59,951 nt of DNA from Candidatus Kuenenia stuttgartensis (GTDB lineage Bacteria > Planctomycetota > GCA-002687715 > CAIWVZ01), in the NCBI GenBank assembly GCA_945860915.1, contig CAMARR010000013.1:1-59951 (forward strand), in the 5' to 3' direction. The position numbers were made by a program, and so were the translations under genes. The notes beneath the pieces were generated by a model. That model searched no databases and was not told where the DNA came from. It worked only from the letters and a program-made list of their open reading frames with translations. This document shows, piece after piece, positions 12,680 to 35,332 of this stretch. How positions within the stretch are numbered: the first letter of the stretch is position 1; each line of letters opens with the position of its first letter.

Positions 12680-12690
12680 GGGAGAAATTG

Positions 12691-12695
12691 CTCCT
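12691..12695 (-). promoter_or_regulatory. Ribosome-binding site that decides the psd start
   Basis: AGGAG on the minus strand lies 11 bases before the ATG at 12679. The upstream in-frame start near 12781 has no comparable site and would add a Pro/Gly/Ser-rich segment foreign to Psd. Confidence 0.5.
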
Positions 12696-12726
12696 TCGGT
12701 ACCCCAAACGGAGCGGGGGACGCTAA

Positions 12727-14070
<1,344 letters not shown>

Positions 14071-16610: not shown

Positions 16611-16641
16611 GGGCCGCTTCGCCGATTAGGTGGGGCGGCCC
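16611..16641 (+). terminator. Inverted repeat between dodecin and the MoxR operon
   Basis: GGGCCGC (16611-16617) and GCGGCCC (16635-16641) form a seven-pair GC stem with a 17-base loop, followed by GGTTCGTTT. It could end the dodecin transcript or sit in the leader of the MoxR operon. The loop is long and the T-run short, so the call is weak. Confidence 0.3.
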
Positions 16642-16724: not shown

Positions 16725-17741
16725 ATGACTGAAACAGGCGATCTCGCAACCGTTCAACGGCTCGGGCAGGCATTCCGCGACCTCAAGTCGGAGATCGGAA
16801 AGGTCATTATTGGTCAGGACGAAGTCCTCGACCAGATCCTGATGGCCGTTTTCGCACGGGGACACTGCCTCTTGGAAGGCGTTCCTGGGCTCGCGAAGAC
16901 ACTCATGGTGTCGACCCTTTCGCGGACGTTGACGCTTTCATTTAAGCGCGTCCAATTCACCCCCGACTTGATGCCTAGCGACATCACCGGGACCGAGGTG
17001 ATTCAAGAAGACAAGGCAACCGGAAGTCGCACGTTCAAATTTGTCGAAGGCCCCGTCTTCGCCAATGTCGTGCTCGCCGACGAAATCAATCGAACGCCCC
17101 CGAAGACGCAGGCGGCCTTGCTCGAAGCGATGCAGGAGCGACAAGTCACGGTCGGCGGGAAGCGACATGACCTCCCCGATCCGTTTTTCGTGCTTGCAAC
17201 GCAGAACCCAATCGAGCAGGAGGGCACATACAACCTTCCCGAAGCGCAGCTCGACCGCTTCATGTTCCTCGTGAAGGTCGACTACCCGAGCGCCGACGAA
17301 GAACTGCGCATCGTCCAGTCAACAACTTCCGTAGCTGGAGCTCCCCCACGCGCCCTACTTTCGGGCGATGACATCAAGGAACTCCAAGACATGGTTCGCC
17401 GCGTCCCGGTTTCCGACCACGTCGTGAAGTACGCTGTGGAATTCGCTCGCCGCACGCGACGCGAATCACCCGACGCTCCGGACTTCGTCAAGCAAAATGT
17501 CGAATGGGGTGCGGGACCACGCGCGAGTCAGTATCTCGTCCTCGCTGCGAAAGCCCACGCCGTCCTTCACGGGCGCACATACGTTTCAGGCGCCGACATT
17601 CGCGCCATCGCGAAGCCGGTCCTCCGTCATCGTATTCTGCTTTCGTACAGCGCCCAGGCACAGAAGCGCGACTCCGATTGGATCATCGACCAGCTACTTG
17701 AGACGATCCCGCGCGCCGAAGCAGATCGCGCAGTCGGCTAA
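16725..17741 (+). CDS. MoxR-family AAA+ ATPase
   Basis: 338 residues. [15 protein letters not shown] and the Walker [27 protein letters not shown], the Walker [20 protein letters not shown] and [22 protein letters not shown] sensor segment are all classic MoxR. These ATPases act as chaperones for von Willebrand factor A proteins. The ATG at 16725 is preceded by GGGGAG; an in-frame ATG at 16692 has no such site. It is the first gene of the long plus-strand operon, four bases ahead of the DUF58 gene. Confidence 0.95.
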
Positions 17742-17745
17742 GGGC

Positions 17746-18660
17746 ATGCTTTCGCAGGGCGAAGTACTCGACCCGGAGATCCTTGATCGCGTCGCAGGCC
17801 TCGAGCTTGCAGCGCGCAAGGTTGTCGAAGGATTTGTGACGGGGCGACATGACTCTCCATTCAAAGGGTCATCTGTTGAATTCCGTCAACATCGCGAGTA
17901 CACAGCCGGCGACGACCTTCGACGCCTCGATTGGAAGGTTTTCGCAAAGAAGGATCGCTTCTACGTTCGCGAATACGAGGAGGAGACCAACGTCAAGACC
18001 TACCTCGTCGTGGACACCAGCCGAAGCATGGCCTATGCCCCCGCCTCGGGCGCTCGGCCGTCGAAACTGCGCTACGCAAAGCTCATCGCGGCCGCGCTCG
18101 CAAAGCTCGTGTCCGACGCCCGCGACCTCGTCGGGCTCGCGCTTTGGGCAAAGACAGATGCCCTCTTCCTGCCGCCAAAGAACGGCGACGGACATGTACA
18201 CGAAATTGCGTCGGCCCTCGCATCGGCGCAACCCGCTGATGCCGCAACAGGCACAGATCTTGGCGCGCTCTTCGAAGAACTTTCTGCCAAGGTCCGACAC
18301 CGATCGATCGTTGTCATTTTGTCGGATCTATTCGACGATCGTACGCGCGTGCTCGAGGGCATCGCTCGGGTCGCCCAACGCGGGCACGACGCCGTTGTCA
18401 TGCATGTCCTCGACCCGGATGAGCTCACGTTTCCATTCGATCGCATGACGCGATTCGAAGCACTCGAATCGGGGCCACTGCCCGTCACCGTTGACGCGCG
18501 CGCGCTTCGCGAAGCCTATCTCGCGGAGATGAACACCTTCACCACGGACGTACGCTCCCGCTGCCTTGCCGCGGGCGTCGACCACCTGCTTCTTGACACC
18601 TCACAGGACCCGGGAACCGCGTTGGCTTCGTACCTCGCGCGCCGGCTTATGACCCGCTGA
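17746..18660 (+). CDS. DUF58 domain protein (VWA-like)
   Basis: 304 residues. The DUF58 core FRQHREYTAGDDLRRLDWKV and FYVREYEEETN is followed by a VWA-like fold with the MIDAS start VVDTSRSM (DxSxS) and VVILSDLFD. It is the usual partner of MoxR. The longer open frame upstream lies inside moxR; ATG 17746 four bases after the moxR stop gives the family N-terminus. The stop overlaps the next ATG as TGATG. Confidence 0.92.
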   Translation: MLSQGEVLDPEILDRVAGLELAARKVVEGFVTGRHDSPFKGSSVEFRQHREYTAGDDLRRLDWKVFAKKDRFYVREYEEETNVKTYLVVDTSRSMAYAPASGARPSKLRYAKLIAAALAKLVSDARDLVGLALWAKTDALFLPPKNGDGHVHEIASALASAQPADAATGTDLGALFEELSAKVRHRSIVVILSDLFDDRTRVLEGIARVAQRGHDAVVMHVLDPDELTFPFDRMTRFEALESGPLPVTVDARALREAYLAEMNTFTTDVRSRCLAAGVDHLLLDTSQDPGTALASYLARRLMTR

Positions 18661-20870
18661 TGTTCGGCCTTCCCGCAATGCTCGGGTGGCTCGCCGCAGC
18701 TGCGGTGCCCGTCCTCATCCACTTGCTCACGCGACAACGATGGCGGCGTGTCGAGTGGGGCGCGATGGAGTTCCTGCTCCGGGCAGTCAAGAAGCAACAA
18801 CGACGCGTGCGCCTCCAAGACCTTCTTCTCCTGCTCCTTCGTGTCGCGGCCGTCATCCTTCTGATTCTCGCGCTCGCCGAGCCTAAGCTCGCGAGCGCAG
18901 GCCTCCTAGGTGGCCAGGAAGAACGCCGCGAGGTCGTCCTCGTCGTCGATACTTCCTTCAGCATGGCGTTTCGTGAGTCAACGGGAGAGACGCCGTTTCG
19001 ACGCGCGGTGGAACGTGCGCGAGCCCTTGTGCGCGATCTGCAGTCGGCGCGTGGCGACACGGTCACCTTGATCACGGGAGGAAGCCCCGCGACACTCAAA
19101 CTGTCGCGCGATTCCGACATCAACCGTGTTGACGCTGAACTGGAGCGGCTTGAGACCAGCGACGCGGTCACAGACCTCCCTGGCGCATTGCGCACGGTTG
19201 TCGCGAAGCTAGACGATCTTCCTCGTGGCGTTGAAGTCTTCATTCTCAGCGACCTCCAACGCGTAGCGCTGAACCCCGGCGGCGAAGATGGCAGTAAGGC
19301 TTTCGACGGCCTCATCACCACGATCAAGCAGAAGGGCTCGTCGATCACGCTTGTTCCATGCGGACGCGGGACGGCCGACAACCTCGCGATCACTTCGGTG
19401 ACCATGGCGTCGAAACTCGCACAGGTCGGACGCCCGACACGATTCGCCGTCATGGTGCGGAACTTTGGAACCCGACCATCGGGCGGCGTCGTCAACTTCA
19501 CAGTGGATGGAGCAGACGCCGGCGGCGACGCAGCGACAATCGACGTGATCGAGGCGGGTAAGGAATCGGTAGTTGACTTCCGTCACACCTTCACCGAGAC
19601 CGGCCCGCACCTTGTGGAGGCGCGCTTCGTCACCGACGCCCTCGAAACCGACAACCGGCGGGCCCTTTCGGTGATCGTGCAGAACCGCGTTTCTACGCTT
19701 CTCATCGACGGCTCTCCCGCGGGCTCATCGGACGAGGGTGCAGCGTACTTCCTGTCGGCGGCACTCGACCCCGCCGGTGCCGATGACCGACGAGGTGCAT
19801 TCGAAGTCAGCGTGAGCGATGAGATCGGGCTCGAACGTGCCGATCTGTCAAATTCATCTCTCGTCATTCTTGCAAATGTGGGAACGATCTCGCCCCGCCG
19901 TGGCGATGACCTCGAGGCTTTCGTCGCCAAGGGCGGCGGCCTTCTGATCTTCGCTGGGGACCGCCTCCGTGGCCCTCAGGTCGATGCGGCCTTGTGGCGC
20001 GACGGCAAGGGTCTCCTTCCAGGTAGGCCGGGCGACGTCGTCGGCAACGATGACACGTCTGACGCCGGATTCGAATTGACACTTACCAGCGCCGAGCGAG
20101 GTCCGCTTCGTTACTTCACCGACGAGCGCGTGCAGGCGCTCATCCCTGCCATCCCGTTCCGAAAGATCCTCCCCGTCACGATCAACGCGGACGACACCAC
20201 CGTGACGACGTATGCGCGTTTCCTGCATCGCAAGCAGCAAGGCACGCCCCCATATCCGGCGGTACTCGAACGACCCTACGGAGCAGGTCGGGTGCTCCTC
20301 GTCGCAACGACGGCGAGTCGGCACTGGAACGACCTCGCGGCATTCCCCACTTACGTTCCGTTCGTGCGCGAGATGGCATACCACCTCGTCCGGCGTGCTT
20401 CCGACCTTGAGAACCTCACCGTAGGCGGCTCGTGGCGTGGTGAAATCGAAGGCTCGGTGAGAAAAGCGACTCTTTCGCACAACGGCCGGCCCATCCGCGA
20501 GCTCGACGCGCTTGCAGTGCCGAACAAGGAACGTCGCTACGAGATAAGAACCGACACGCTTGATCGCGCGGGAACATGGCGGCTCGAGTTCCCGCCAAGT
20601 GACGATGGAAAGGTCACCCCACCCATTCGCCTCGCGGTCAATGTGGACCCGCTCGAGTCTGACCTCGCACGCCTGACACCGGATGCCATGGTTTCCAGAT
20701 TCCCGGCTGGCACGCTGCGCGTGGTCGAAGATCCTTCGGCCAAGGCCAGTGCCGCCAACAGCGAGTCGGATGGCAGGCTTTGGTGGTGGTGCCTCATTGG
20801 GGCCTTCGTGCTCTTCCTAGCTGAGTCCTTTGTCGGGCAGTGGATCGGCAAGAGTCGAGGGGGCGCCTGA
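18660..20870 (+). CDS. BatA-type membrane VWA protein
   Basis: 736 residues. The N-terminus is the BatA/aerotolerance domain: a first membrane helix, LLTRQRWRRVEWGAMEFL, and a second helix (LLLLLLRVAAVILLILAL). A VWA domain with VVDTSFSM (DxSxS MIDAS) follows at about residues 95-240, then Ig-like and alpha/beta regions and a last membrane helix (WWWCLIGAFVLFLAE). The bulk probably faces the periplasm and the MIDAS site is complete. It is coupled by TGATG on both sides. Such proteins are thought to be MoxR clients; the exact role is unknown. Confidence 0.88.
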   Translation: MFGLPAMLGWLAAAAVPVLIHLLTRQRWRRVEWGAMEFLLRAVKKQQRRVRLQDLLLLLLRVAAVILLILALAEPKLASAGLLGGQEERREVVLVVDTSFSMAFRESTGETPFRRAVERARALVRDLQSARGDTVTLITGGSPATLKLSRDSDINRVDAELERLETSDAVTDLPGALRTVVAKLDDLPRGVEVFILSDLQRVALNPGGEDGSKAFDGLITTIKQKGSSITLVPCGRGTADNLAITSVTMASKLAQVGRPTRFAVMVRNFGTRPSGGVVNFTVDGADAGGDAATIDVIEAGKESVVDFRHTFTETGPHLVEARFVTDALETDNRRALSVIVQNRVSTLLIDGSPAGSSDEGAAYFLSAALDPAGADDRRGAFEVSVSDEIGLERADLSNSSLVILANVGTISPRRGDDLEAFVAKGGGLLIFAGDRLRGPQVDAALWRDGKGLLPGRPGDVVGNDDTSDAGFELTLTSAERGPLRYFTDERVQALIPAIPFRKILPVTINADDTTVTTYARFLHRKQQGTPPYPAVLERPYGAGRVLLVATTASRHWNDLAAFPTYVPFVREMAYHLVRRASDLENLTVGGSWRGEIEGSVRKATLSHNGRPIRELDALAVPNKERRYEIRTDTLDRAGTWRLEFPPSDDGKVTPPIRLAVNVDPLESDLARLTPDAMVSRFPAGTLRVVEDPSAKASAANSESDGRLWWWCLIGAFVLFLAESFVGQWIGKSRGGA

Positions 20871-23257
20871 TGTCTCCTCAACACATCGAAGGCGTCCGCG
20901 AAGGGCTTGTGTTCCGAGATGCGCCGGCCCCTTGGGTGATCTGGCTTGTCATCGTTCCGCTCGTCATTTGGTTCACCTGGGGCATCTATCGCCTCTCGGG
21001 TGAAGCGTCTACGGGTGTCCGCCGACTATTGATCGCTCTTCGTATCGGCTTGCTGCTTTCACTTCTGGCATTGATTTTTAATCCGTCACGCGAAACCCTC
21101 GTCGTCGAGAAGCAGAAGACTGTCGTCGCTGTGCTCGTAGACACATCTGCGTCAATGTCGCATCGCGATGGATTTGAATCATCAGCCGCAACATGGGAAT
21201 CGCTGCGCATCACAGCCAATCTGCCAGCGGGGACACCCGCCGGAGATCGCACTCGACTCGACCTCGTCAAAGCGGTTCTTGACCAACCTGAGCGGAAGCG
21301 CTTAGATGAGCTCGCAAAGGACCACGACGTCAGGGTTTATTCGTTTGGTGAAGCCCTGCAGCAAATCGCAGGAGTCTCAAACCTCGAAGCCCGCGAACGC
21401 GTCACATCACTTGGGACCGCAATCGAACGCGTCCTCGACGAACCGGATCTGCGCAGTCGCGCCGTCGGCGGCATCGTCGTCGTTTCAGACGGCAAAGTCA
21501 CAGCGGGTGTGGGCCTCGATGTGGCCGCGGCGGCTGCGAAGCGTCGGCGGATCCCTATTCACACCGTAGGAGTCGGCGATCCTGCGGCACTTCGCGATCT
21601 AGAGCTTCTCGCTGTCCGCGCTGACACCGTGGCCCTTAAGGACGACGAGCTTATCGTCGGCATGAAAGTACGTAACCGAGGGTTCCCTGGAGGCGCTGCC
21701 ACTCTTCGCATCACCGATGTGAAGGATGGCCGAGAAATCGCGCGCGAGGCCGTGGCGCTGCCCGACGACGGCGGTGAAACCTCCTACGACATTCGATTTA
21801 AGCCGCAGATCGAGGGTGAGCAACAGTGGAAGTTGGAAGTTGTTGCGCTTCCCGGCGAACACACGGTCGAGAACAACTACAAGATCCACTCCATTCGCAT
21901 CCGGAGCAGCCGCCTCACGGTGCTGTATGTAGAAGGCGTTCCTCGGTGGGAGTACCGGAAGTTCAAGAACTTCCTGGTGCGCGGCCAGGACGCGTTCACC
22001 GCGTACTCCTTGCTGCTTGGGTCGACCGCTATTCAGGAGGCCACGGCGTTGCCGGGTGTCGTCCCGCTTGAAGACTTCCCGCGCACCGAGGAGGAGCTTT
22101 CGAGGTTCGACGTGATCGTCTTTGGCGATGTTGATCCTGATGCTCAGGATCGCATCGGCGTCGACGCGGCAGAGCGCCGCAAAGTGTTCGAAAATGTGCG
22201 GCGCTTCACCGAGAACGGCGGGGGCTTCATGATGCTTGCCGGTGAGAGTTTCTCGCCTCGCGCATGGAAGGACACACCTCTCGAAGACCTGCTACCGGTT
22301 GTGATGGATCCAACGGAGGATGCAGCGGGATCGCGAGAGCTTCTCACTGCATGGAAGCCCCGACTGACGGCGCTCGGTCGCGTCCACCCGATCATGCAGC
22401 TCGACGGCGACACCGAGACCAACCGCAAGCTCTGGGAAGACCCCGAGTACTTAAAGGGTTTCTTTTGGTGGTCACGCATCAAGAAGGCCAAGCCAGGCGC
22501 ACAGGTGCTCGCAGAGCATCCAACCGAACGAACGACGGAAGGCCGCCCCTTTCCCGTTATCGTGTCCGGAGCCTTCGGCGAAGGCCCGACTGTTTTCGTC
22601 GGCTATGACGAGACCTGGCGTTGGTTCCATTTGCATGGCCCAAAGTATGCCCACCAATGGTGGGGCAATATCATTCGATATCTAGGCCGCGCTCGGCTCT
22701 ACGCTGGCGACAAGCGCTTCCGACTGGTGTCGAATCGCTCGGCTTACGATGTGAGCGACCGCGCCACGCTGACCGCCTACGTCAAAGAGAAGGACTATCG
22801 CCCCTCGGCTAAGCCCGAGATCGAAGTGGTTGTCCGGGCGCCAGCAGGTACTGATCCCGAACGCCGGGTGGTCATGAAACGTGTGGATGACGGCGTGTAC
22901 GAGCGGTCCTTCACTGTCGAGGAAGCCGGAATTTGGGTCGCGTGGCTTCCGCCTGAAGAGGGACTCGGCGACGACAAGATCGCTCCTATTTCATTCAACG
23001 TTCGGCTCTCCGACATCGAGAACCGTGAGCCCGTGCTTGACGAACCAGCACTGAAGCGGCTTTCCGGCGAAACCGGCGGCAAGTATGTCACACTCGCGGA
23101 ATGGGACGCGCTCGCCAGCACGATCGGCGCCGAAACCGTTGAGGTGCCCCGCCGACGTGAGTTCCGCGACATTCGCCGAGAACTTTGGATCCCAATCATC
23201 GCGATCTTCCTTGCGACGGCCGAATGGATACTGAGGAAGCGCTTCCGCTATCCGTAA
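20870..23257 (+). CDS. Membrane VWA protein with GATase-like domain, cysteine-free
   Basis: 795 residues. Two N-terminal membrane helices are followed by a VWA domain with VLVDTSASMS (MIDAS), a beta-rich middle part, and from about residue 345 a class I glutamine-amidotransferase-like fold (LYVEGVPRWEYRKF, then ENGGGFMMLAGESF). A C-terminal helix precedes a basic end. The site where an amidotransferase has its nucleophilic Cys reads AGESFS, and I found no cysteine in the whole protein, so it cannot be an active amidotransferase. The start overlaps the upstream stop as TGATG. A longer frame opens 10 codons earlier inside the BatA gene. Confidence 0.85.
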   Translation: MSPQHIEGVREGLVFRDAPAPWVIWLVIVPLVIWFTWGIYRLSGEASTGVRRLLIALRIGLLLSLLALIFNPSRETLVVEKQKTVVAVLVDTSASMSHRDGFESSAATWESLRITANLPAGTPAGDRTRLDLVKAVLDQPERKRLDELAKDHDVRVYSFGEALQQIAGVSNLEARERVTSLGTAIERVLDEPDLRSRAVGGIVVVSDGKVTAGVGLDVAAAAAKRRRIPIHTVGVGDPAALRDLELLAVRADTVALKDDELIVGMKVRNRGFPGGAATLRITDVKDGREIAREAVALPDDGGETSYDIRFKPQIEGEQQWKLEVVALPGEHTVENNYKIHSIRIRSSRLTVLYVEGVPRWEYRKFKNFLVRGQDAFTAYSLLLGSTAIQEATALPGVVPLEDFPRTEEELSRFDVIVFGDVDPDAQDRIGVDAAERRKVFENVRRFTENGGGFMMLAGESFSPRAWKDTPLEDLLPVVMDPTEDAAGSRELLTAWKPRLTALGRVHPIMQLDGDTETNRKLWEDPEYLKGFFWWSRIKKAKPGAQVLAEHPTERTTEGRPFPVIVSGAFGEGPTVFVGYDETWRWFHLHGPKYAHQWWGNIIRYLGRARLYAGDKRFRLVSNRSAYDVSDRATLTAYVKEKDYRPSAKPEIEVVVRAPAGTDPERRVVMKRVDDGVYERSFTVEEAGIWVAWLPPEEGLGDDKIAPISFNVRLSDIENREPVLDEPALKRLSGETGGKYVTLAEWDALASTIGAETVEVPRRREFRDIRRELWIPIIAIFLATAEWILRKRFRYP

Positions 23258-23264
23258 ACATCGC

Positions 23265-26200
23265 ATGAACCGATTCTCTGCAGCTCTTGTTTTCCTAGCT
23301 TCATTCGCTGCGGCCCAGCGATGGGATAGCCCCGGCAATACAAGCAAGGTCTCGGTTCCTGACGAGCAAGGTCGCGAGCCACTAGAACTCATCGCCAAAT
23401 CGGCCGCTCAAGGCGAATTCGATCGTGCTCTTGATCTCCTCCAAGGGCTTCTCGATCGTTATCCGGAGAAAGTTGTCGAGTCCGTTCGAGCGCAGCGAAG
23501 CCCAAGCGAGACAGATCATATCGTTCCAGGTGACATCTACGTTGGCCTCCGAACTGCTGTAATGGAGCGAATTCTCGCGCTGCCAGACGGTCTCCTCCGA
23601 TACCGCACGCGCGAGGACGGGGCCGCAGCCAAAGGGTTGGCTGCGGGAATCGCATCGCGTGATGAAGCGCAGTTGCGTCGAGTCATGACAAGTCGTTGGC
23701 TCACGACGAGCGGGCCCGCTGCGGCCTCGGCGCTTGCCGATCTCTTGTTCGAGGACGGCCGTCCAGAGGAGTCCGCCGCAGTAGCACATGCCGCAATTCG
23801 TGATGCCATGCCGGACCTCGATCTGCGATTGAAGGCCCAGCTCGGCGCTCGGCTCCTCGTCGCGCTTTCTTGCTTCAATTCCGGCAACGCACTCGCGGGC
23901 GTTCGCAAGGAACTAGGGGCGCTCACCATCGAGGTAGACGGCAGCGCCATTTCTCTCGAAGCACTCGCCGATCGGCTCAAGCCAAGTGTGGCAGCCTCGG
24001 ATCTGCCTACGGTGCCCACTCTGACTCCGTTCTCCTCCAAACCGCTTTTTGCCAGGGGACTGAAGGTCCAAGAGACCCGTGATTCGTTCGATGGGGGCGA
24101 CTACTTCCGATCTTTCGGCCAAGACATCGTGGGCGCCGGACTCATCTTCGCCCCTGTGTATCCCGAGATCGTCGAGGGGGTCGCGTACTGGTGCGATGGC
24201 CTCACGCTGAATGCCGTCAATCTCATCACGGGCGAGAACGCCTGGCCGCCCGTTGAGGGTCCCTTCGGCGCCTTCGAGGGGCGACGAAACTGGAACCTCT
24301 CCCACGGCGTGACCTACGACCGCGGTGTCGTGTTCACCTCACTAGAGGACGAACCGTCAATCCGTCGTGATGGTCGCGGGACTCCGTTTGGCTACACGCC
24401 GATTGAGACAATTCCATCGCGAAAACTCGTCGCTGTCGACGCGTCTACGGGCGACACGATCTGGAGCCACCTCGGTGGCGGCTCCTCCGACCTGCCGTCG
24501 GAAGATCGTGATTTCCTGAGGCGAATCACGGTCAATTCCGTCCCCCTCGTTTCTGGTGAACGGGTCTACGTCGGTGTGACCTACTACGTCGGAGGCTTCC
24601 GTCATTGGCTCTGTGCGTTCGACAGGACGACGGGACGACTCGTTTGGAAGACTTACGTCGCCCGCGGGCAAGCCGAGCAGAACATGTTCGGACGTCCCGT
24701 GAAGGAAGCGGTGCCAAGCCAAGTGGGGCTTCACCGAGGGACCCTAGTTTATTCGACCAACATAGGCGTCGTGACCGGTATCGATGCCGCGACGGGTGTC
24801 ACACGTTGGGTCTCCTCATACTCGCAAGACCTCATTCCCGTAACCGAGGGCCAACGCACCATCGAGCGGTTCCCTGGATGGGTAGCGGGCAGACCGTCGT
24901 TCTTTGAGAACTTCGCATTCGTGGCGCCCACCGACGCACTTTGGGCCTATGCCGTCAACATGAACGACGGCAAGCTCACACCGATTGAAGACGAGGCGCG
25001 CGAAGAGCGCATGGCGCGAACCAAGCAGAATCAATTCCGCCATTTCCTCGGAGTGCACGATGGGCTCGCGATCGCCTCTGGTCGATGGTTGACTGCATTC
25101 GACATCACGGGACTTGCGGAAGGAAAACCCATCGTCTTCAAGTGGAAGGCGGGGGGCATTGGCGGCAACGACCCGCTCGGCCGCCCATCGATCACAAATG
25201 GGCGAATCACTTGGCTGTCGTTATCGAGCGGAGGCGCGAATGGTCCGCCTCGCACCAAAGTGATCATAGCCGACATTCGCAGCGGCAAAGCGCTCGACGA
25301 ACGCAGACTAGATCCACCGGCAATGCCAGGCAACCTCGTGCTTACCGACGAGGCCGCAATCATCGCGGGTACTTCGAGCATCACTGCGTGGTTTGACGCG
25401 GGCCCCGTCGCCACGCGTTTGGACGCGCGGCTCACAGCGAATCCCAAAGATTCTGAAGCGGCCCTCCGACGTGGCCAACTGGCTTTGGCGCAGCGCCGTC
25501 CTGACTTGGCTGTGTCGCTCCTCGAGCGCGCAACGACCTCAATCGACGCGCGTGTTGCTAAGGAAGCATCGTCAAGCCTTCTCACGCTATGGCTCGACCT
25601 CGCCAAGAGTGGTGTGCCTATCGAAGGCGTCACGTTGAGTCCGTCGGATCGATTCTCGAAGGCAGTTTCGTTTGCAGTTACTCCCCGCCAGAAAGCCATG
25701 GTTCGCAAGGACGAATTGCTTGCTTCGCGACGTGGGGTTGACGTCGCTCTCATCCGCCGAGCCGCCCGCGCTCTTCTTGCTCTCAACAACGAGCCCATCC
25801 GGGTCGACGCACAGGCCGTTGAGATCGTCGCGATGCTCTCTGCGGGAAGCGATCTTCCCGCCAGCCTTTACGGCGCGTTGATCGGCGCAACCCTGCTTGA
25901 GGGGCCAGCACCCACCGACTCCATTAGTTTTTATCAGGAGATTCTCGCGAGGCATCCAGACACATCACTCGGCGGCAGTACCGGCACGACGGGGTTTCAA
26001 TTCGCCTATGACCGCATCCGATCTTTGATTGAGCAGCATGGTCCCAAGGTTTATTCGGACGAAGAGGCTGCGGCCAAGAAGGCCCTCGAGGCCGCGACTG
26101 CATCGAGGGACCCCGATGCGATCGCCGCAGTCGTCAACCGTTACCCGAACGCCGCGATTGCAGGCGAGGCTCAAGCGACATTGACCCAGGCTCTCCGCGA

Positions 26201-27758: not shown

Positions 27759-27792
27759 AATCAACAGCAAGCATCCGGCGCCAAGATTCCCA

Positions 27793-29046
27793 ATGAAAAT
27801 CACCTCCTCCGCCCCAACAATGGGCCTGCTCGCAGTAACCGTGCTCGGAACGGTTTTTGGCGGAGCTGTGCTGTGGAACCGGGTCACGTTCCCCTCGGAT
27901 GATTCGGAAGTCGTGGCCGTTGCGACCATCGCTCCGATCCCAGTGGCATCAACCGACGTGACGCACGCCGACACAGATTCCCCAAGCGAAGCCGAGCTTG
28001 ATGCCGTCTTCGGCGAGGCGGGCGCCAGGATCACGGCTCCAGCATTCGGCGAAGACGAACAGGTCAAGGGCGCCATCGAGCGCGCCTTGCGCTATCTCGC
28101 AAAATCGCAGGCGCCGAATGGCGCGTGGATCCAAGACATCGGATACAAGTTCAACGACTTCTATCAAGTGACCGCGTACGCAAAGCCCGACGTTGGCGTG
28201 ACGGCGCTCGCTCTCATGGCGTTTCTCTCGGGCGGCCACCTTCCCGGGCGTGGCGAATACGGGAAGGTCGTCGAAAAGGGCACCGACTTCATTCTCGGCG
28301 CAGTGGATCCCGAAACAGGATTCGTTTCGCTCGACGGTTCGCGCATGTACTCCCACGCCTTCGCGACCCTCTTCCTAGCCGAAATCTACGGCATGACGCA
28401 CCGCGCGGATGTGAAGCAAAAGCTTCAGCTCGCGGTGAACCTCATGGTGAAGTCACAGAATAAGCATGGCTCGTGGCGCTATGAACCAGACTCCGAAGAA
28501 TCGGACATGTCGGTCACCGTGTGCCAAGTCATGGCATTAAGAGCGGCGCGCAATATCGGCATCCGAGTACCGAAGTCGACGGTCGACCGCGCATACGGCT
28601 ATGTCGTTCGTTCGGGAATCACTTATGGGTCTGAGGCTGGGGGATTCAAGTATCAAGAGAAGGAAGCGACACGCACTTCGTTTCCACTTACCGCCGCCGG
28701 CGTTGCAACACTTCACAATGCCGGTGTCTACGACTCCAAGCTCATTCGCTCGGGCATCGAATATCTGAAGGCGAGCATGTCGGGAATCTACCGCTCGTAC
28801 GCGGGACATTACTTCTATTGGTACGGCCACTACTACGCATCTCAGGTGTTCTTCACGGCGGCTGACAACGGCACGAACCATTGGGAGTCTTTCTATTGGC
28901 CGCGCATCCGACTTGAGTTGCTCGGGACGCAACAAGAGAACGGTTCGTGGAAGAACACCGTGGGTCCCGGCAGCGTCTTCGCAACAGCCGTTGCGTCCAT
29001 CATCTTGCAGATTCCCTACCAGTACCTCCCGATCTTCCAGAGGTGA
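27793..29046 (+). CDS. Membrane-anchored prenyltransferase/squalene-oxidase repeat protein
   Basis: 417 residues. One N-terminal membrane helix is followed by an acidic linker and an alpha/alpha toroid with repeats such as SQAPNGAWIQD, SQNKHGSWRYEP and TQQENGSWKN, the QW-like pattern of terpene cyclases. The catalytic DxDD of squalene-hopene cyclase is absent; the equivalent region reads DSEESDMSVT. Planctomycetes code many such toroids outside terpene pathways, so it is read as a non-enzymatic or unknown-enzyme homologue. The stop overlaps the next ATG (TGATG). Confidence 0.82.
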   Translation: MKITSSAPTMGLLAVTVLGTVFGGAVLWNRVTFPSDDSEVVAVATIAPIPVASTDVTHADTDSPSEAELDAVFGEAGARITAPAFGEDEQVKGAIERALRYLAKSQAPNGAWIQDIGYKFNDFYQVTAYAKPDVGVTALALMAFLSGGHLPGRGEYGKVVEKGTDFILGAVDPETGFVSLDGSRMYSHAFATLFLAEIYGMTHRADVKQKLQLAVNLMVKSQNKHGSWRYEPDSEESDMSVTVCQVMALRAARNIGIRVPKSTVDRAYGYVVRSGITYGSEAGGFKYQEKEATRTSFPLTAAGVATLHNAGVYDSKLIRSGIEYLKASMSGIYRSYAGHYFYWYGHYYASQVFFTAADNGTNHWESFYWPRIRLELLGTQQENGSWKNTVGPGSVFATAVASIILQIPYQYLPIFQR

Positions 29047-31427
29047 TGGTGGAAACTCGCGCCAACGTCGACATCACGCGCGTCCTTGACGCTGTTCGAG
29101 GACGGCTCCGTCTGCGCATTCTCCTTGCGGGAGGCGCGCGGGTACTCCGCGATGCCACGGCTTTGGCCCTCGCGACGTTCGCGGTCGATATCGCCCTCGA
29201 ACCGCCACGCCCCGTCCGCATACTCCTTGCGGTCACATGCGTCGCAACGGTGCTCCTCTCCGCTTGGCGTCACTTCGCGAAACGCCTTGCCACGAAATTC
29301 AGCGATGACGAACTCGCGCTCCTCGTTGAGCGAAGCCACCCAGAGCTCAACGACCGCGTGATTTCAGCACTCCAGCTTGGGCGCGATCTTGCGTCAGGAG
29401 CCACATCGGAGTCGCCCGATCTCATCCGCGCCACGATTCTCGATGCTGAGCGCGCGACCACGTCTCTACACGTGGGCCGTGCTGTTCCGATGGGACCAAT
29501 CGCACGACCGCTCTTCCTCGCATCGTTCGCGATTGCGCTTGCGACGACCCTCGTTGCCCTGCGACCAGAGTGGGCGAAACTCTGGGTGGAACGCTACATC
29601 TTCCTGAAGGACACGCCTTGGCCCCGCGCGACTTCGCTCCGCCTCGTCGTCACCGACGAAGAGCGTTACGCCAAGGAAACCGTGGACGGCCGAGTCGTCC
29701 TCCATGTTCCGGAGCGCATGCCGCTCCAAGTTCAGGTTGAAGCCATCGGTGTAGTGCCCGACGAAGTCGAGCTCGTCATTGCTCCTGCCGACGACCCGTC
29801 CTCCGAAGCGCCGGTGACGATGGGCCGAGCTGCCGGGAAGGGCTGGTTCCAACACAACTTTCCCCCACTCGATCGCTCCATCATGATCCACGCGAGAGGC
29901 GGCGATGATCGCGACAGAGATCCGACCATCGAGATACGCGTCGATCGCGCGCCACGTGTCACGGGATTGGCAACCACTCTGGAATTCCCAGCCTACACGG
30001 GCCTCGCGCCTCGTACAGGTGACGAACGCAACCTGACCCTGCCTGAAGGCACCCGCGTTGCCATGTCGTTTAAGGTGAACTTAGATCTTGAGGCGTTCGA
30101 TATCGTCTCCGAGAAGGCGGGCACCGTTCGCTTGCAATCGGATACGGATGGAACGTATCGCTACGCCTTCGTTGCATCTGTTAGCGATTTTTACACATGG
30201 AGACTCCGGGCAAAGTCGGGCGTTCCGTCGGCGGATGTACCGCGGTACGTGCTGACCGTTGCGCCCGACACACCACCGCGTGTGACGTTGGATTCTCCAG
30301 CATCAACATCCTTGGTCGTGACCCCCGACGCGGTCATCCCATTCCGCGGGATCGCCACTGACGACCATGGCATCTCGTCCATCGAGATCCGGTACTCTCG
30401 ACTGGAAGAGGGTTTGCCGTACGCATTGCCTCTCGGCGCAGAGGACCTCGTCCTTACCGCGCCGACGCCAACCACCGGCATCACCTCGACGATGAAGCGT
30501 GTCGCGTTCGCGTCCGACATCGACGTTTCCAAGTTCGCGCCCCCGGCAGAATCCCAACCTGCGGCAAAGCCTGCTGGCGGAGTTGACGTCAACACCACAC
30601 TTGCAACACCGGACGCACCCAAGGCCGACGACCGTATTCGCTTTCGCCTTCTGGTGTCCGACAATCGTGTCACTCCGGATCACCCCGAACCTCACCGCCA
30701 ATACGGCGATGCCGAGTATCGGATCGAAATCAAGAAGCGGGACGAAGTCGAGCGCGATCTTGCACAAAAGCAAACACGTCTGCGAGATCGGGTGCGCGAC
30801 CTGCTTCGCCTCGCGGAAGCTAGGTTGACGGAAGCAGAAGATCTAGTCACGAGATCCTCGTCGGGCAGCGATGGCCCCGTTTCAAGCTTGGCCAAGTCGT
30901 TTCAAGTGACGGAATCTGGACAATCTCGCGTCACCGCGGAGGTCGCTGTTTCTGCACGACAATTCTCACGGGTGTTTGACGGCTACCTCTATAACCGCCT
31001 TGACCCTGGGCCGCTCACCAACCGCCTCCTCGGTGCCCTCCTTAGACTCTGGCGTGAACGTCCAGCCGAAGACGCGCTCGTCCTCTATGGCCGCGCCCTT
31101 GAAGAGGCCAAGAACGCGGTGTCAGACACTCAGCTCTTAGGCAGACTCGTCAACATTCTCGATCTGTTCATTCGTTCTGCGACCGTGACCTCACCTGAAG
31201 CGACACGTCGTCTCGGGCAAGCCGCGCTCGCATCCACTCCAGAGGCACGCCTTGCCGAAGCAAAAGCTGCCATCGCCGCCCAGAAGAGTCTTGTGGAGGA
31301 TCTCCGCCTCCTCGAGGACCGCTTGCTGGCCTGGGAAGACTACCTCGATGTCGTCCAGGGCCTCCAAGATCTGATCGAGTTGCAAAAGGGCATTCGAAGT
31401 AAAGCGGAGAAACTGTCAAACAAGTAG
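29046..31427 (+). CDS. DUF4175-like membrane protein with Ig-like region
   Basis: 793 residues from the TGATG-coupled start; the frame opens 33 codons earlier inside the previous gene. Hydrophobic helices lie at about residues 40-75 and 145-170. A large beta-rich exterior part follows with Ig-like strands (for example LVVTDEERYAKETVDG and VTGLATTLEFPAYTGL) and then a C-terminal helical, coiled-coil part. The layout matches DUF4175 proteins found next to MoxR/BatA genes and coiled-coil genes. Function is not known. Confidence 0.75.
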   Translation: MVETRANVDITRVLDAVRGRLRLRILLAGGARVLRDATALALATFAVDIALEPPRPVRILLAVTCVATVLLSAWRHFAKRLATKFSDDELALLVERSHPELNDRVISALQLGRDLASGATSESPDLIRATILDAERATTSLHVGRAVPMGPIARPLFLASFAIALATTLVALRPEWAKLWVERYIFLKDTPWPRATSLRLVVTDEERYAKETVDGRVVLHVPERMPLQVQVEAIGVVPDEVELVIAPADDPSSEAPVTMGRAAGKGWFQHNFPPLDRSIMIHARGGDDRDRDPTIEIRVDRAPRVTGLATTLEFPAYTGLAPRTGDERNLTLPEGTRVAMSFKVNLDLEAFDIVSEKAGTVRLQSDTDGTYRYAFVASVSDFYTWRLRAKSGVPSADVPRYVLTVAPDTPPRVTLDSPASTSLVVTPDAVIPFRGIATDDHGISSIEIRYSRLEEGLPYALPLGAEDLVLTAPTPTTGITSTMKRVAFASDIDVSKFAPPAESQPAAKPAGGVDVNTTLATPDAPKADDRIRFRLLVSDNRVTPDHPEPHRQYGDAEYRIEIKKRDEVERDLAQKQTRLRDRVRDLLRLAEARLTEAEDLVTRSSSGSDGPVSSLAKSFQVTESGQSRVTAEVAVSARQFSRVFDGYLYNRLDPGPLTNRLLGALLRLWRERPAEDALVLYGRALEEAKNAVSDTQLLGRLVNILDLFIRSATVTSPEATRRLGQAALASTPEARLAEAKAAIAAQKSLVEDLRLLEDRLLAWEDYLDVVQGLQDLIELQKGIRSKAEKLSNK

Positions 31428-31432
31428 GAGGT
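31426..31432 (+). promoter_or_regulatory. Full-consensus Shine-Dalgarno before the coiled-coil gene
   Basis: AGGAGGT is a perfect anti-16S match with five bases to the ATG at 31438. It stands out because the upstream operon genes rely on stop-start coupling. It suggests that the coiled-coil protein is made at a higher level than its neighbours. Confidence 0.7.
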
Positions 31433-31437
31433 CTCCC

Positions 31438-34400
31438 ATGACCCGACTCGCGTTGGTGTTTGCGCTCGCAGTGATCGTCCCTGCGACGCTGGCTCAGGAA
31501 TCCGCGGCCGACACGGACCGCGAACTCCAGTCGATCATCCGTGAGCAGGAGAACGCGCTACGCGGGTTGAAGTCGCTTCGTGCGCGCATGGAACGGCTCA
31601 AAGTCCGCATGGCGCAGGAAGGTCGCGATCAGGCTGTCGCGCTCCTTCAACGTGGCATCGACGAACTGACGTCATCCAAGCTCGAAGATCGGATGGGCGA
31701 TGTGGCGGGCAAGCTCAAGGCCAACGAACGCCTTGCAGGCCTTGCCGAAGCTGATGGAATTGTGACGAAGCTCATTTCGATTCTCGATATTCTCCAAGAG
31801 AAGCAGCCCCAGAACTCGCAGGCCGACAAGAAGGTTGCGGAGTTAGACAAAGCCCTTAGCGACATCCGTGAAATCAGCCAGGAGCAACGCAACCTCAAGG
31901 ACCAGACCAACGCGCTGCGAAATGCGTTAACCCCGGAACAGAAAAAAGCATTCAACGACCTCGCGAAGAGGTTGCGCGACTTAAAGGCCGAATCGGATCG
32001 ACTCGCCACCGAAACAGCGCGCGAGGGTCCAACAGACGAAGCGATCGATGAAGCGATGGCGGCTGCCGACGCCATCAAGGAGCGGGCGAATGAAGGCGAC
32101 AAAGCGGGCGACGCTGAGGCCGCTTCAAAGGCCGCGAAGCTTGCGGAGGTTGCGCGTTCGCTAGCCAATGCCGCCAAACGCGCGGAGAGTCTGGCGCTCA
32201 ACGCCGACGCCACGGCCAAGGACTTAGACGCACAAGCGGCGAGAGACGCCCTCGTCGACGCGCTAGCCAAAGCAAAAGCCGCAAACGACGCGTCAAAACT
32301 GGCCAACGAAGCTGCGGCGAAAGTCAGAGGCACGTCGGGCGGCGAAGCCCGTGCGAAGGCCGAGCAAGCGGCGATGGCTGCGGAGAGTGCGGCAAAAGAC
32401 GCGGCGGACACTGCTCAACGAGCCGCTGAAACGTCTACAGCTGCGGCGGAAGCTGCCGCGCGCGCCGATCTCGCAGCAAAACAGGGCGCGCCATCGGACA
32501 CGATCGGGCGCGACGCCCGCATGTCGGCCGCCGCGAAGAAGGAGATGGACCGCGCGCGCGATGCCGCCAACAAGGCTCTAGCGGATGCCAAAGCTGCTGC
32601 AGAGTCCGCCGCGAAGGGCGACAACGCTAAGGCCAGCGCGGCTTCGGCTGAATCCGCGTCCGCGAATCAGGCGGCTACGGACGCTACGCAGAAGGCGACT
32701 GCTTCGGCTCCGAGCTCTGCAAACTCCTCCAAAGCTGCGGAGAGCATGGCAAAGGCGGCCGGCGATCTCGCGAAGGAGGCACGTGATACCGGCGCAAAGG
32801 CAGGCGACGAAAGCACCGCGTCCGCCGCCGACAGCGGTGCGCAATCCGCCGAAGCAGGCGCTACAGAGCTGAACAAAGCAAAGTCCGAAGCAGACGCCGG
32901 GGCGACCAAGAAGGCCGCAGCACAGGCGCGCGCAGGCGCTGCCGAGCTTGAGAAGGCGGCGCAGTCATTGAAGGACGCAGCCAGAGCTGCCAATGGCGAA
33001 GCCGCCGCCGCCGAAAGTGACTTGGCAGCGTCGGACAAAGCTGCTGCCGAAACCGCACAGGCTGCCGCCGACAAGCTGTCGCCGAAGAGTGCGGGGACGG
33101 ATGGCGCAAATACCCAGACCCCCGAATCGAAGGCTGCCGCCGAGGCAGCCGACGCCCTACGCGACGCGGCAAACCAACTAAGCAAGGCATCCGACGCCCG
33201 CAAACAAGGCGATGCCGGTGCGTCAAAATCTGCGCGCGATGCAGCCCGCAACGCAGCCGACGCCTCCAAGGAAACGGCCAAGAAGGCGCGCAAAGATCTG
33301 TCCCGAAAGAAGGAGGATGCGGCTCTTGCAGCAAAGAAGCGCCGCGACCTTTCCCGTAAGACCGATGAGATCAAGAAGCAGATTGACGACCTCAAGTCAA
33401 AGACAGGCAATGAGGGCGCCGAGAGTGCATCTAGTTCGACGGCTGATGCCTCTGCAAAAATGAACGATTCCGCAGCGCAATCAGAGTCGGGCCAGTCTGG
33501 TGCCGCTCAGGAATCGGATGCGTCGGCCTCACAGGCACTCGACGATGCTGCGTCAGCCATGGAGAAGGCGGCAGGGGGTCAAACGAAGGACTCAGCGAAG
33601 GACAAGGAGGACATGAAGGCCCTCGCCAAGAAGCAAGAAGACCTAGCGGAAAAGACAAAGAAGCTCGCTGAGAGTCTCAAGAACCTATCTCCTAAAGGCG
33701 GTGAGGGGGCTGAAAAAGCAGAGGCCTCCATGTCCGAGGCCAAGCAGAAGATGAGCCGAGATACTCAGGAGGACTCTGCGAAGGCAGTAGAAAAGCAGGA
33801 AGAGGCCATCGACTACCTCGAGCAGGCGCAGGACAAGCTTAAAGAGGAGAAGGACGACTACCTCGGACTCCAGCAGGAAGAAGCGCTCTTCAAAATCGGT
33901 GCCGAGATTGAGAAGTTGATCAAAGTCCAGGAGGAGATCAACAAGGAAACCGTGCGCTTAGATCGCGAACGCGCGGTCGAAGGCCGCCTCGGAAGAACGC
34001 AGCGCGCGGACCTCAAGGCGGCACAGGGCAAACAATCGGCGTCGCGAGACCAGCTCAATTCCATGCTCGAAGCGATGAAGGCAGAGGACGTCCTCGCGTT
34101 CACGTGGCTTCTCGACACCGTGAAAGCCGACATGGCCCGCGTCATCGATCTGATGGAGCAAAAAGAGACGGGGCCACTTATTCAGTCTGTCGAGGACGAT
34201 GTCGTTGTCGGCCTCAAGCAGCTTCAGACAACGCTCAAGGACGAGGCAGAGGCTCGCAAGTCCATGAAGAAGGATGATGCTCCGCCCGGCCAGCCTCAGA
34301 AGCCACCGCTCGTTTCGATGCTCCAGGACTTGCTCCTGCTTCGCCGGTTACAACTGACCACCAAGGCCGAGACCGAGAAGTTCTTCTCGAAAACTGAGAG

Positions 34401-34578
34401 TACTGACCCTTCGGACATTGCGGTCAAGAAGGAGATTCTCCAGCGCCTCGTTCACCGCCACGGAAACATCCGTTCGTTGTTTGATCGGTTTGTTGAGAAG
34501 TCACAGCCACCAGATGGCGGCGGCGGCAACGAGGACTCCCCCGATGGTCCGACCTCGCGCCCCGGAGAAGGACGATGA
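31438..34578 (+). CDS. Secreted alanine-rich coiled-coil protein, 1046 residues
   Basis: A signal peptide ends near residue 19 (ATLAQ). Residues about 25-190 are a charged helix. About 190-610 is extremely rich in Ala with Lys, Asp, Glu and Ser in heptad-like order (AAESAAKDAADTAQRAAE). About 610-790 is a Lys/Glu/Ser-rich linker. A conserved-looking helical end (LFKIGAEIEKLIKVQEE to the C-terminus) finishes in a Pro/Gly-rich tail. No catalytic motif. It probably forms a long fibrous or envelope-spanning element. It overlaps the next ATG by four bases. Long shadow frames on both strands come from the GCN codons. Confidence 0.85.
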   Translation: MTRLALVFALAVIVPATLAQESAADTDRELQSIIREQENALRGLKSLRARMERLKVRMAQEGRDQAVALLQRGIDELTSSKLEDRMGDVAGKLKANERLAGLAEADGIVTKLISILDILQEKQPQNSQADKKVAELDKALSDIREISQEQRNLKDQTNALRNALTPEQKKAFNDLAKRLRDLKAESDRLATETAREGPTDEAIDEAMAAADAIKERANEGDKAGDAEAASKAAKLAEVARSLANAAKRAESLALNADATAKDLDAQAARDALVDALAKAKAANDASKLANEAAAKVRGTSGGEARAKAEQAAMAAESAAKDAADTAQRAAETSTAAAEAAARADLAAKQGAPSDTIGRDARMSAAAKKEMDRARDAANKALADAKAAAESAAKGDNAKASAASAESASANQAATDATQKATASAPSSANSSKAAESMAKAAGDLAKEARDTGAKAGDESTASAADSGAQSAEAGATELNKAKSEADAGATKKAAAQARAGAAELEKAAQSLKDAARAANGEAAAAESDLAASDKAAAETAQAAADKLSPKSAGTDGANTQTPESKAAAEAADALRDAANQLSKASDARKQGDAGASKSARDAARNAADASKETAKKARKDLSRKKEDAALAAKKRRDLSRKTDEIKKQIDDLKSKTGNEGAESASSSTADASAKMNDSAAQSESGQSGAAQESDASASQALDDAASAMEKAAGGQTKDSAKDKEDMKALAKKQEDLAEKTKKLAESLKNLSPKGGEGAEKAEASMSEAKQKMSRDTQEDSAKAVEKQEEAIDYLEQAQDKLKEEKDDYLGLQQEEALFKIGAEIEKLIKVQEEINKETVRLDRERAVEGRLGRTQRADLKAAQGKQSASRDQLNSMLEAMKAEDVLAFTWLLDTVKADMARVIDLMEQKETGPLIQSVEDDVVVGLKQLQTTLKDEAEARKSMKKDDAPPGQPQKPPLVSMLQDLLLLRRLQLTTKAETEKFFSKTESTDPSDIAVKKEILQRLVHRHGNIRSLFDRFVEKSQPPDGGGGNEDSPDGPTSRPGEGR

Positions 34579-35267
34579 AACGACTCTTCATGATGTTTGC
34601 CATCTGTGCAGCAACTCTCTCGTCAGGAATTTGTGCTCAAGAAGGGACGACTGACCCCACCGAGCTCATGCGCCAGATTAAGCGCAACCTGCAGAAGATC
34701 GAAGATGAGCTCAACCGCATAAGGACGGCGCCTTCTGGTTCCGACGCGGGAGCACGCGAAAAAGACATCGAGACACTTAAGCGTCGCCAAGATCAGGTCG
34801 TTAAGGACATCGACGAGATCATCAAGCAGATGAAGCAACAGTCCGGTGGTGGTTCGTCAGACGAATCTCCGCCGCCTCCAGATTCGAAGAGCAAAGAGGA
34901 TTCTCAGTCAGGCCAAAAGCCTAAGAGCCGTGACCGCAATAAGTCTCAACAAGACCAAGGCAAGCAGCCCCAGGGTGGAAAGAAGCCGCAAGGGGGACAA
35001 AAGAAGGATGGCGAAACCGGAAAGAAGCCGCAGGGTGGCAAAGAAGATAATTCTCAACCGAACAGCGGCAAGCCCGAGAACCAAAAGGGACCGCAACCGC
35101 CGCAAGACCCTCGACGCAGGTTGCAACAAGTTGACGTCAATGAGGTGTGGGGCATCCTTCCGCCCGAGATTCGCCAGAAGTTGATAGATCGCAACTTTGG
35201 AGAATTCACGCCCGAGTACGAGGACGAGGTGCGTGAGTACATCAAGAAGGTCTCAACGGGCCGCTGA
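34575..35267 (+). CDS. Small secreted protein with KPQGG linker and WG-LPP C-terminal motif
   Basis: 230 residues. A signal peptide (to about residue 21, ICAQ) is followed by a coiled coil (about 28-80), a low-complexity Lys/Gln/Pro/Gly linker with three GGKKPQGG-like units (about 115-165), and a conserved-looking end EVWGILPPEIRQKLIDR. That final segment resembles the WGxLP..R motif that recurs at the ends of planctomycete exported proteins in this type of operon. It is the last gene of the MoxR operon and overlaps the coiled-coil gene by ATGA. Function unknown. Confidence 0.8.
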   Translation: MKRLFMMFAICAATLSSGICAQEGTTDPTELMRQIKRNLQKIEDELNRIRTAPSGSDAGAREKDIETLKRRQDQVVKDIDEIIKQMKQQSGGGSSDESPPPPDSKSKEDSQSGQKPKSRDRNKSQQDQGKQPQGGKKPQGGQKKDGETGKKPQGGKEDNSQPNSGKPENQKGPQPPQDPRRRLQQVDVNEVWGILPPEIRQKLIDRNFGEFTPEYEDEVREYIKKVSTGR

Positions 35268-35299
35268 CCGGCACTCGATTTAGTCCAAGCCAACGTAAG

Positions 35300-35332
35300 C
35301 GAGCGTTTTCACGATGGCCGTGAGAGCGCTCG
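35300..35332 (+). terminator. Terminator-like hairpin closing the MoxR operon
   Basis: A 14-pair stem (35300-35313 with 35319-35332, two G-U pairs on the plus transcript) encloses the loop ATGGC, 32 bases after the last stop. It is followed by GTTGCTTT, a weak U-tract. It also lies 32 bases beyond the 3' end of the convergent lipoprotein gene, so it may serve both directions. Confidence 0.6.

Follow-up and report, generated by a model that had tools for sequence, protein, structure and literature searches.

The 59,951-nucleotide (nt) stretch of Candidatus Kuenenia stuttgartensis DNA analysed here (hereafter the window) carries a cluster of nine genes, g1 to g9, whose core recurs across the phylum Planctomycetota. 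The cluster is a Bat-type MoxR/VWA core (VWA, von Willebrand factor A domain) with added parts: a rod, a propeller protein and a toroid, all predicted to be exported and all candidate substrates of the core, and a link to genes for sigma factors and FecR-type anti-sigma factors. Bat-type MoxR/VWA operons occur in several phyla, and their targets are unclear; the cluster supplies a set of candidates that keep company with the MoxR/VWA block throughout one phylum. Planctomycetota have unusual, poorly understood envelopes and divide unusually, and a cluster that is found almost universally in them and centres on an ATPase and an envelope rod gives experiments in a tractable model something definite to aim at.

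The nine-gene cluster and its conservation

Open reading frame (ORF) calling on the window gave nine plus-strand ORFs from 16725 to 35267, one run of about 18.5 kb that lies between two hairpins (aa, amino acids; pLDDT, predicted local distance difference test score; GATase, glutamine amidotransferase):

16611..16641, plus strand: hairpin between a POT transporter gene and the MoxR gene, upstream of the latter (13-pair stem; z -4.1 versus shuffles)
16725..17741, plus strand: g1, MoxR AAA+ ATPase, 338 aa, no transmembrane segment (AAA_3 219.5 bits, AAA_lid_2)
17746..18660, plus strand: g2, soluble DUF58/VWA protein, 304 aa, no transmembrane segment (DUF58 158 bits, VWA_2)
18660..20870, plus strand: g3, BatA-type membrane VWA protein, 736 aa (BatA 56.4 bits, VWA_2 43.7 bits, two_anch 71.4 bits)
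20870..23257, plus strand: g4, membrane VWA and GATase1-like protein, 795 aa (PF07090, VWA)
23265..27758, plus strand: g5, TPR/PQQ-propeller/TPR/propeller protein, 1497 aa (PQQ_2 76.4 bits in three stretches, TPR_6, BamB-like stretches)
27793..29046, plus strand: g6, predicted alpha/alpha toroid, squalene-cyclase-like, 417 aa (model pLDDT 92.1; hydrophobic segment 9-27)
29046..31427, plus strand: g7, DUF4175-like membrane protein, 793 aa (model pLDDT 87.3; hydrophobic segments 56-74 and 152-170)
31438..34578, plus strand: g8, Ala-rich (22.6% Ala) coil protein, 1046 aa, signal-type N-terminus (composition; segment 1-19)
34575..35267, plus strand: g9, KPQGG-linker protein with a WGxLP C-terminus, 230 aa, signal-type N-terminus (segment 4-22; WGxLP tails in relatives)
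35300..35332, plus strand: hairpin ending the run (14-pair stem; z -7.3 versus shuffles; weak T tract)

ORF calling thus recovers the same-strand run from MoxR to a small secreted-type protein that an earlier note on this DNA had described. The three TGATG junctions of that note are present (g2/g3, g3/g4 and g6/g7), and spacing is close elsewhere, with ATGA at g8/g9 and gaps of 4 nt at g1/g2, 7 nt at g4/g5, 10 nt at g7/g8 and 34 nt at g5/g6, the largest within the run. The closing 14-bp hairpin is also there, its T tail weak. At the three internal junctions that were folded (g4/g5, g5/g6 and g7/g8) no strong hairpin was seen relative to shuffles. Terminator-like sites in the region show no excess (16 versus 19.6 in shuffles), and the longest stems on that list are the two hairpins above. 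A sigma-70-like promoter scan, which is little informative for Planctomycetota, gave one match, at 16204 ahead of the operon, where 3.7 are expected by chance. The run is preceded by an enolase gene and the POT transporter gene, and 'ggggag' stands 4 nt ahead of the g1 ATG. The same note spoke of giant exported structural proteins; its module identities hold, whereas 'giant' and 'structural' are not established.

When the window genome and 30 relatives were searched with g7, 26 of the 31 genomes gave a match. The 36 regions around these matches form our first set; by phmmer and iterated profiles, their prevailing order is MoxR, DUF58, BatA, VWA/GATase, propeller, toroid, rod, coil and tail, with L048, L049 and L065 among the exceptions, where the propeller and toroid genes lie upstream. 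A second set of 40 regions was picked from about 150 listed g7 matches in the phylum for long contigs, not at random, which brings the total to 76 g7-anchored regions from 60 genomes (23 + 37), some with several copies. Scores are inflated within the sets used for training, since the 36 first-set regions supplied the sequences for the main profiles, and the profiles for tails and for sigma/anti-sigma factors derive from sets that they were then used to scan; plain phmmer with the window proteins returns the same prevailing gene order.

Across 246 Planctomycetota genomes, the g7 profile matched in 227 and the g4 profile in 232. Both were present in 226 and absent in 13, only g7 was missing in 6 and only g4 in 1, a concordance of 239/246; joint absence in 13 genomes compares with 1.1 expected by chance (Fisher 2.6e-16, inflated by kinship among the 13). 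Since no more than about four candidates were scored per genome and many genomes are incomplete, absences and copy numbers are rough. Five genomes rated 99% complete (G066, G132, G146, G160 and G208) gave neither a g7 nor a g4 match at the thresholds used and may represent lineages without the system, whether lost or never acquired.

The earlier note had treated the nine genes as a shared set, and the synteny check bears this out, the core being present in most of the Planctomycetota regions that were sampled. Homologues of the later genes mostly keep MoxR/VWA company: at least one of g1-g4 lies on the same strand in 60 of the 76 g7-anchored regions. By class, 55 regions have MoxR/VWA genes only, 7 sigma/anti-sigma genes only, 5 both and 4 neither; 5 are too short. 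Among 39 evaluable regions of the phylum set, g3 and g4 occur together in 31, any of g1-g4 in 33 and none in 6; all calls of g1-g5, g8 and g9 in these regions are on the rod strand, and one region has an opposite-strand toroid. L172, with just 2.1 kb upstream, was left out of the 39 and is nevertheless counted as sigma/FecR only among the 76. A fixed search interval understates linkage, since in the L052 genome the g4 match and g7 share a contig and a strand at a distance of about 18.5 kb. Four regions (L158, L168, L171 and L185) hold rod and MoxR/VWA genes with no propeller or toroid gene in the region, which makes the rod the steadier MoxR/VWA companion.

Scanning genome contigs with the toroid alignment gave at least 588 confirmed stretches, and the best 80 were named as loci; their records are titled Planctomycetota, subgroups of that phylum or unnamed bacteria, and one (L114) is titled Bacillota. 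After 25 with less than 9 kb upstream were left out, 55 of these best-scoring loci could be counted, with g3 in 37, g4 in 37, g5 in 38 and g7 in 39; g1 was called in only 10, and the flank often ends before it. The named loci and the g7-anchored regions overlap in L071/L038 and L072/L043. Collectively, the linkage in g7-anchored regions, the concordance of g4 and g7 and the three folded junctions free of strong hairpins indicate that the genes belong together.

The rod, the propeller and toroid genes and the MoxR/VWA core

We read g7, g8 and g9 as pieces of one DUF4175-like rod because they are fused in relatives: a 1107-aa ORF in L061 joins the g7 profile to a WGDLP end, a 1326-aa ORF in L110 joins g8 to a WGNLP end, and a single ORF in L184 holds g7 and the tail. 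The g7 model shows an N-terminal helical and transmembrane region, a beta-sandwich rod and long C-terminal helices, and its fold search of the PDB returned Ig-type rods of many kinds. Periodicity in the heptad range was found in 10 of 23 overlapping windows of g8 (p<=0.05). None of the three proteins reaches a curated family cut-off in Pfam or NCBIfam; for DUF4175 itself (PF13779, threshold 27.3 bits), g7 gave no match and g8 15.7 bits (E 0.004). Relatives scanned against the same model fall on both sides of its threshold, P0058 and P0023 below and P0068 (509 aa, named DUF4175) above. The g7 profile retrieves, as full-length proteins, P0076, P0088 and P0095 of the DUF4175 family together with P0110 and P0112 of TIGR02302, and there are relatives of 1000-1340 aa. 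Rod-gene ORFs of 1900 aa and more were seen in L166, L167 and L190, outside the standard cluster.

WGxLP occurs near the C-terminus of 39 ORFs, a few of which are chance matches (L049, L060 and L063); most of the remaining ORFs show a YR..I..YY-like pattern after it. The earlier note called g9 a KPQGG-linker protein. The linker is present, and g9 is a conserved component and more than a linker, given that its WGxLP tail recurs in relatives.

In several regions g7 is immediately preceded by a gene for an extracytoplasmic function (ECF) sigma factor and one for a FecR-domain protein that often carries a zinc finger at its N-terminus. The FecR-type gene lies directly 5' of g7 with Pfam support in L052, L057, L172, L176, L181, L186, L187, L192 and, in Candidatus Uabimicrobium amorphum, L200; the FecR match is below cut-off in L172 and in L187, where the zinc finger is above it. 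In L046 and L047 the gene was found by a custom profile trained on the Pfam-supported set. L052, L172, L181 and L186 have the FecR-type gene alone, with no sigma factor called, and in L167 the sigma factor is confirmed by Pfam and the anti-sigma call is not; the 'both' class of L190 is also weak. An ECF sigma and FecR-type anti-sigma pair upstream of the rod gene, with or without MoxR, was observed in L046, L047, L057, L176, L187, L192 and L200, the last with sigma and FecR genes at 11809-13535 followed by the rod genes. Judged from gene neighbourhoods, the sigma/FecR genes appear to be an alternative, second neighbour of the rod genes, and this adjacency suggests that the rod is tied to envelope signalling.

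Propeller and toroid genes share the rod strand in 24 phylum-set regions, and in 21 of these they are next to each other. In the window the pair follows g4 and precedes g7; in L156, L160, L161 and L175 it is directly 5' of MoxR, and in Uabimicrobium it lies at a different chromosome site (L107) from the rod genes (L200), with no MoxR/VWA gene called in either stretch. Propeller and toroid genes thus seem to form a separable pair that moves together. An additional ORF separates the two genes in L156, L160 and L161, and that of L160 matches SIMPL/DUF541.

Both halves of g5 contain TPR and PQQ/BamB-like propeller stretches. A tandem duplication was rejected, the halves having no significant mutual match (best BLAST E 0.089), and our claim is therefore limited to the second TPR/propeller unit being missing from shorter relatives, which match the first half only. 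The N-terminus of g5 looks signal-like by eye only and does not pass the hydropathy threshold, and a PDB sequence search gave no match at E 0.001. For the g6 model, the best PDB match is squalene-hopene cyclase 8paj (template modelling score 0.64), with sugar epimerases likewise at about 0.6. DxDD is the catalytic motif of type II terpene cyclases; the fold fits, but g6 contains no D.DD, and we rejected terpene cyclase activity. Among the three aligned families, g4, g6 and g7, the toroid is the best conserved, with a mean column identity of 48% versus 37% and 28% for the other two. Its C-terminus reads LPIFQR. In a set of 156 distinct toroids with complete sequences, 131 share an LP[ILVMF]xxR end, LPIFQR being the commonest form (71); of the 25 that lack it, a few are doubtful as toroids. 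In the g6 model the final eight residues have a mean pLDDT of only 55, in keeping with a flexible tail that serves for docking. Past the coil/WGxLP genes, about 16-19 kb into L072, L075, L077, L080-L082, L084-L086, L089 and others, lies a second toroid gene at a greater distance; none was called in the window. Lone toroids without called operon neighbours were also seen (L120, L121, L123, L125, L129, L130, L133, L134 and L142-L146).

The core has an ATPase and three VWA domains with intact metal ion-dependent adhesion sites (MIDAS). Walker A (GVPGLAKT) and Walker B (VVLADE) of g1 are both intact, and DxSxS together with the Asp of a later SD is conserved in g2 (residues 90 and 190), g3 (DTSFS) and g4. 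The BatA domain of g3 (PF07584) scores well above its cut-off of 25.9 bits, and TIGR02226 also matched. Hydropathy places hydrophobic segments in g3 at 2-20, 55-73 and 707-725; together with six K/R among the 15 residues preceding the second segment, this predicts that the VWA domain lies outside the cytosol, in the periplasm. For the Bat-type protein BB0173 of Borrelia, the excerpted part of PMC5700661 reports a measured periplasmic VWA domain.

Profile matches place a GATase1-like fold (3rht) and a BatB-like VWA domain (3ibs) in g4, and its hydrophobic segments are at 22-40 and 53-71. Class I GATases use a catalytic cysteine as the amidotransferase nucleophile; g4 contains no Cys at all, and we rejected amidotransferase activity on this ground. 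Besides the MIDAS, the invariant columns of the g4 alignment include Y25 and R43 (first-row numbering), where the hydrophobic hairpin near the N-terminus ends on either side, and E770, W771 and R774 near the C-terminus. Since the BLAST E value between g3 and g4 is 0.074, we do not claim them as paralogues.

On a tree of 47 operon and 3 other MoxRs, the operon MoxRs largely cluster against the host paralogues, with L067 on a long branch. The host genome has three further MoxR loci (L195, L196 and L197). L197 (G000:C2:177500-197499) is Bat-like, with DUF58, two VWA proteins and a TPR protein; one of the others has DUF58 and a 2593-aa VWA/TPR ORF, and one has no VWA profile match nearby. Rod, propeller and toroid profiles found no match in the 20-kb stretches around these three MoxR genes.

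A proposed mechanism and its alternatives

The earlier note proposed that MoxR helps to assemble or activate a large periplasmic machine. Its view that the genes belong together stands; it missed that g7-g9 are one rod, that propeller and toroid form a separable pair, and that sigma/FecR genes are a second neighbour. MoxR assembling such a machine is compatible with the predicted topology and with known MoxR/VWA chaperones. Our own explanation, to which we give about an even chance, is that a Bat-type MoxR/VWA core, a DUF4175-like rod, a TPR/propeller protein and a predicted membrane-anchored toroid work together, with cytosolic ATP hydrolysis likely assembling and remodelling the rod across the periplasm. 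MoxR and the soluble DUF58 protein g2 would act on cytosolic loops or tails of g3, g4 and g7, and the conserved hairpin ends and C-terminal positions of g4 are where this pair could do so. The likely periplasmic VWA domains of g3 and g4, with their MIDAS, would hold ligands, for which the LPIFxR C-terminus of the toroid is a candidate. The rod, made up of a membrane anchor, Ig-type domains, a long coil and the WGxLP tail, would extend in the direction of the outer layers, and in several lineages its state may be read by the FecR-type anti-sigma factor encoded beside it. That the parts form a physical machine, how ATP would be coupled to it and what it would do are matters of inference. A bolder version, which we think unlikely, is an ATP-driven trans-envelope strut and strain gauge, whereby the MoxR ring would load and reset the Ig-coil-WGxLP rod through periplasmic VWA clamps on the LPIFxR tail, and the FecR-type anti-sigma factor would read the rod and release the ECF sigma factor.

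Several observations weigh against the explanation of a core acting on the rod. MoxR is cytosolic and most of the partner mass is predicted to be periplasmic, which leaves the coupling route unexplained; the charge pattern leaves the second segment of g7 unsettled in topology and is indecisive for g4, whose C-terminal segment is below the hydropathy threshold. The operon MoxRs are not strictly one clade, as L063 groups with two host paralogues. Linkage also has gaps: L038, L166, L170 and L184 have neither partner, seven of the 76 regions have sigma/FecR-type calls only, the g4 match listed for the L038 genome is on another contig, and some members of the linked group are weak, such as L067 with a distant MoxR only and L190 with g4 only, 9.6 kb off. 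L110 and L112 carry propeller, toroid and rod genes with no g3 or g4 in about 7.5 kb upstream, and propeller and toroid genes are apart in L157, L182 and L183. LPIFxR-type ends are found on lone toroids too, and 15 of the 55 counted toroid loci lack g3, g4 and g7 beside the toroid, L079 and L107 among them having a propeller gene. These 15 bare loci are also a built-in control, and MoxR/VWA and rod genes are therefore not simply everywhere.

The conservation of the toroid gives some weight to the view that the MoxR/VWA block acts like NorQ/NorD as a maturation chaperone dedicated to one member of the cluster, most likely the toroid or propeller protein as an enzyme, with the rod as bystander or scaffold. 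The NorQD precedent, in the excerpted part of PMC9976466, has the MIDAS binding the target and ATP driving its remodelling, and the toroid is both the best conserved of g4, g6 and g7 and similar in fold to terpene cyclases and sugar epimerases. However, the DxDD of type II cyclases is missing from g6, and the four regions named above keep MoxR/VWA and rod genes without propeller and toroid; we consider this view rather improbable. Co-transcription of envelope genes that share no complex, so that linkage is co-regulation only, would fit the separation of modules in L038, L110, L112 and L107/L200. Against it, the pieces of g7-g9 fuse, three junctions read TGATG, g4 and g7 are jointly missing in 13 genomes, and the parts stay together even where their order changes, and we judge it improbable.

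A role in envelope growth or division, in a phylum that divides without FtsZ, is suggested by the presence of g7 relatives in nearly all genomes and by AdvA of Acinetobacter, a DUF4175 protein critical for division according to the excerpted part of PMC7481262, likened to g7 here by family label. That label is broad, and near-complete genomes such as G034, G057 and G077, among others, show four g7 matches (as many as were scored), unusual for a division core; such a role seems to us distinctly improbable. The MoxR, vWA, TPR and beta-propeller parts also recall subsystem 4 of the MoxR-vWA ternary systems in the excerpted part of PMC7159879, and g1 reaches 49.6 bits with the bpMoxR model (cut-off 27). 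We nevertheless regard a conflict or immunity system of this type as highly improbable: the vWA proteins carry no propeller, g1 scores far better on AAA_3 and its P-loop is not GXXXTAKS, PADLOC matched none of the nine proteins, and presence is near-universal rather than patchy.

Comparison with known systems

The operon was not found described in the literature searched, which covered few subscription journals, and 'MoxR' and 'von Willebrand' are missing from the main text, tables aside, of the essentiality papers on P. limnophila and V. spinosum. The Bat (Bacteroides aerotolerance) operon has the order MoxR-DUF58-BatA-BatB-BatC-BatD-BatE. The present cluster resembles it in having MoxR beside a DUF58 gene, in the N-terminal double-transmembrane BatA domain and MIDAS VWA domain of g3, in the BatB-like VWA profile of g4, although g4 is 795 aa long with a GATase-like fold, and in the TPR and Ig-type proteins that follow. 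It differs in the Cys-free GATase fold of g4, in the combination of TPR and propellers in g5, in the added toroid and in an Ig protein that is DUF4175-like with a long coil; at E<=0.1, Pfam and NCBIfam gave no BatD or BatE family for g5-g9. The host, moreover, keeps a separate, more Bat-like operon at L197. In Leptospira biflexa, the excerpted part of PMC3557215 reports that deletion of all bat genes left growth rate and morphology unaltered, with no demonstrable oxidative-stress defect.

The MoxR-vWA beta-propeller ternary systems share with the cluster a MoxR, a vWA protein and a TPR/propeller protein. There, the vWA protein carries a C-terminal propeller, whereas no propeller family was found in g2, g3 or g4, and the P-loop is often, not strictly, GXXXTAKS (PMC7159879, in excerpt), compared with GVPGLAKT in g1. 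NorQ/NorD and RavA/ViaA likewise pair a MoxR with a MIDAS-bearing VWA partner; here, in contrast, membrane proteins make up two of the three VWA partners, and at least the g3 VWA domain is predicted to be periplasmic. Membrane-coat-like proteins of the Planctomycetes-Verrucomicrobia-Chlamydiae superphylum (PMC2799638, in excerpt) resemble g5 in joining propellers to TPR solenoid stretches. Judged by domain order against their description, g5 is probably not such a coat protein, as a coat protein has an N-terminal propeller and then an alpha-solenoid, whereas g5 starts with TPR.

The rod has profile-level kinship with named DUF4175/TIGR02302 members through g7, but is split here into three genes, of which neither g7 nor g8 reaches the PF13779 threshold. 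It also resembles TolA/TonB and the vWA transducers driven by proton motive force (PMC12204202, whose excerpted part includes vWA proteins of Planctomycetes among them) in having a membrane anchor, a long helical part and a small conserved C-terminal segment. Those systems use TolQ/ExbB-type motors, whereas the neighbouring energy source here is an AAA+ ATPase; were the strut and strain gauge real, the cluster would be a counterpart of TolA/TonB that an AAA+ ATPase powers, and would rank among the core envelope machines of Planctomycetota.

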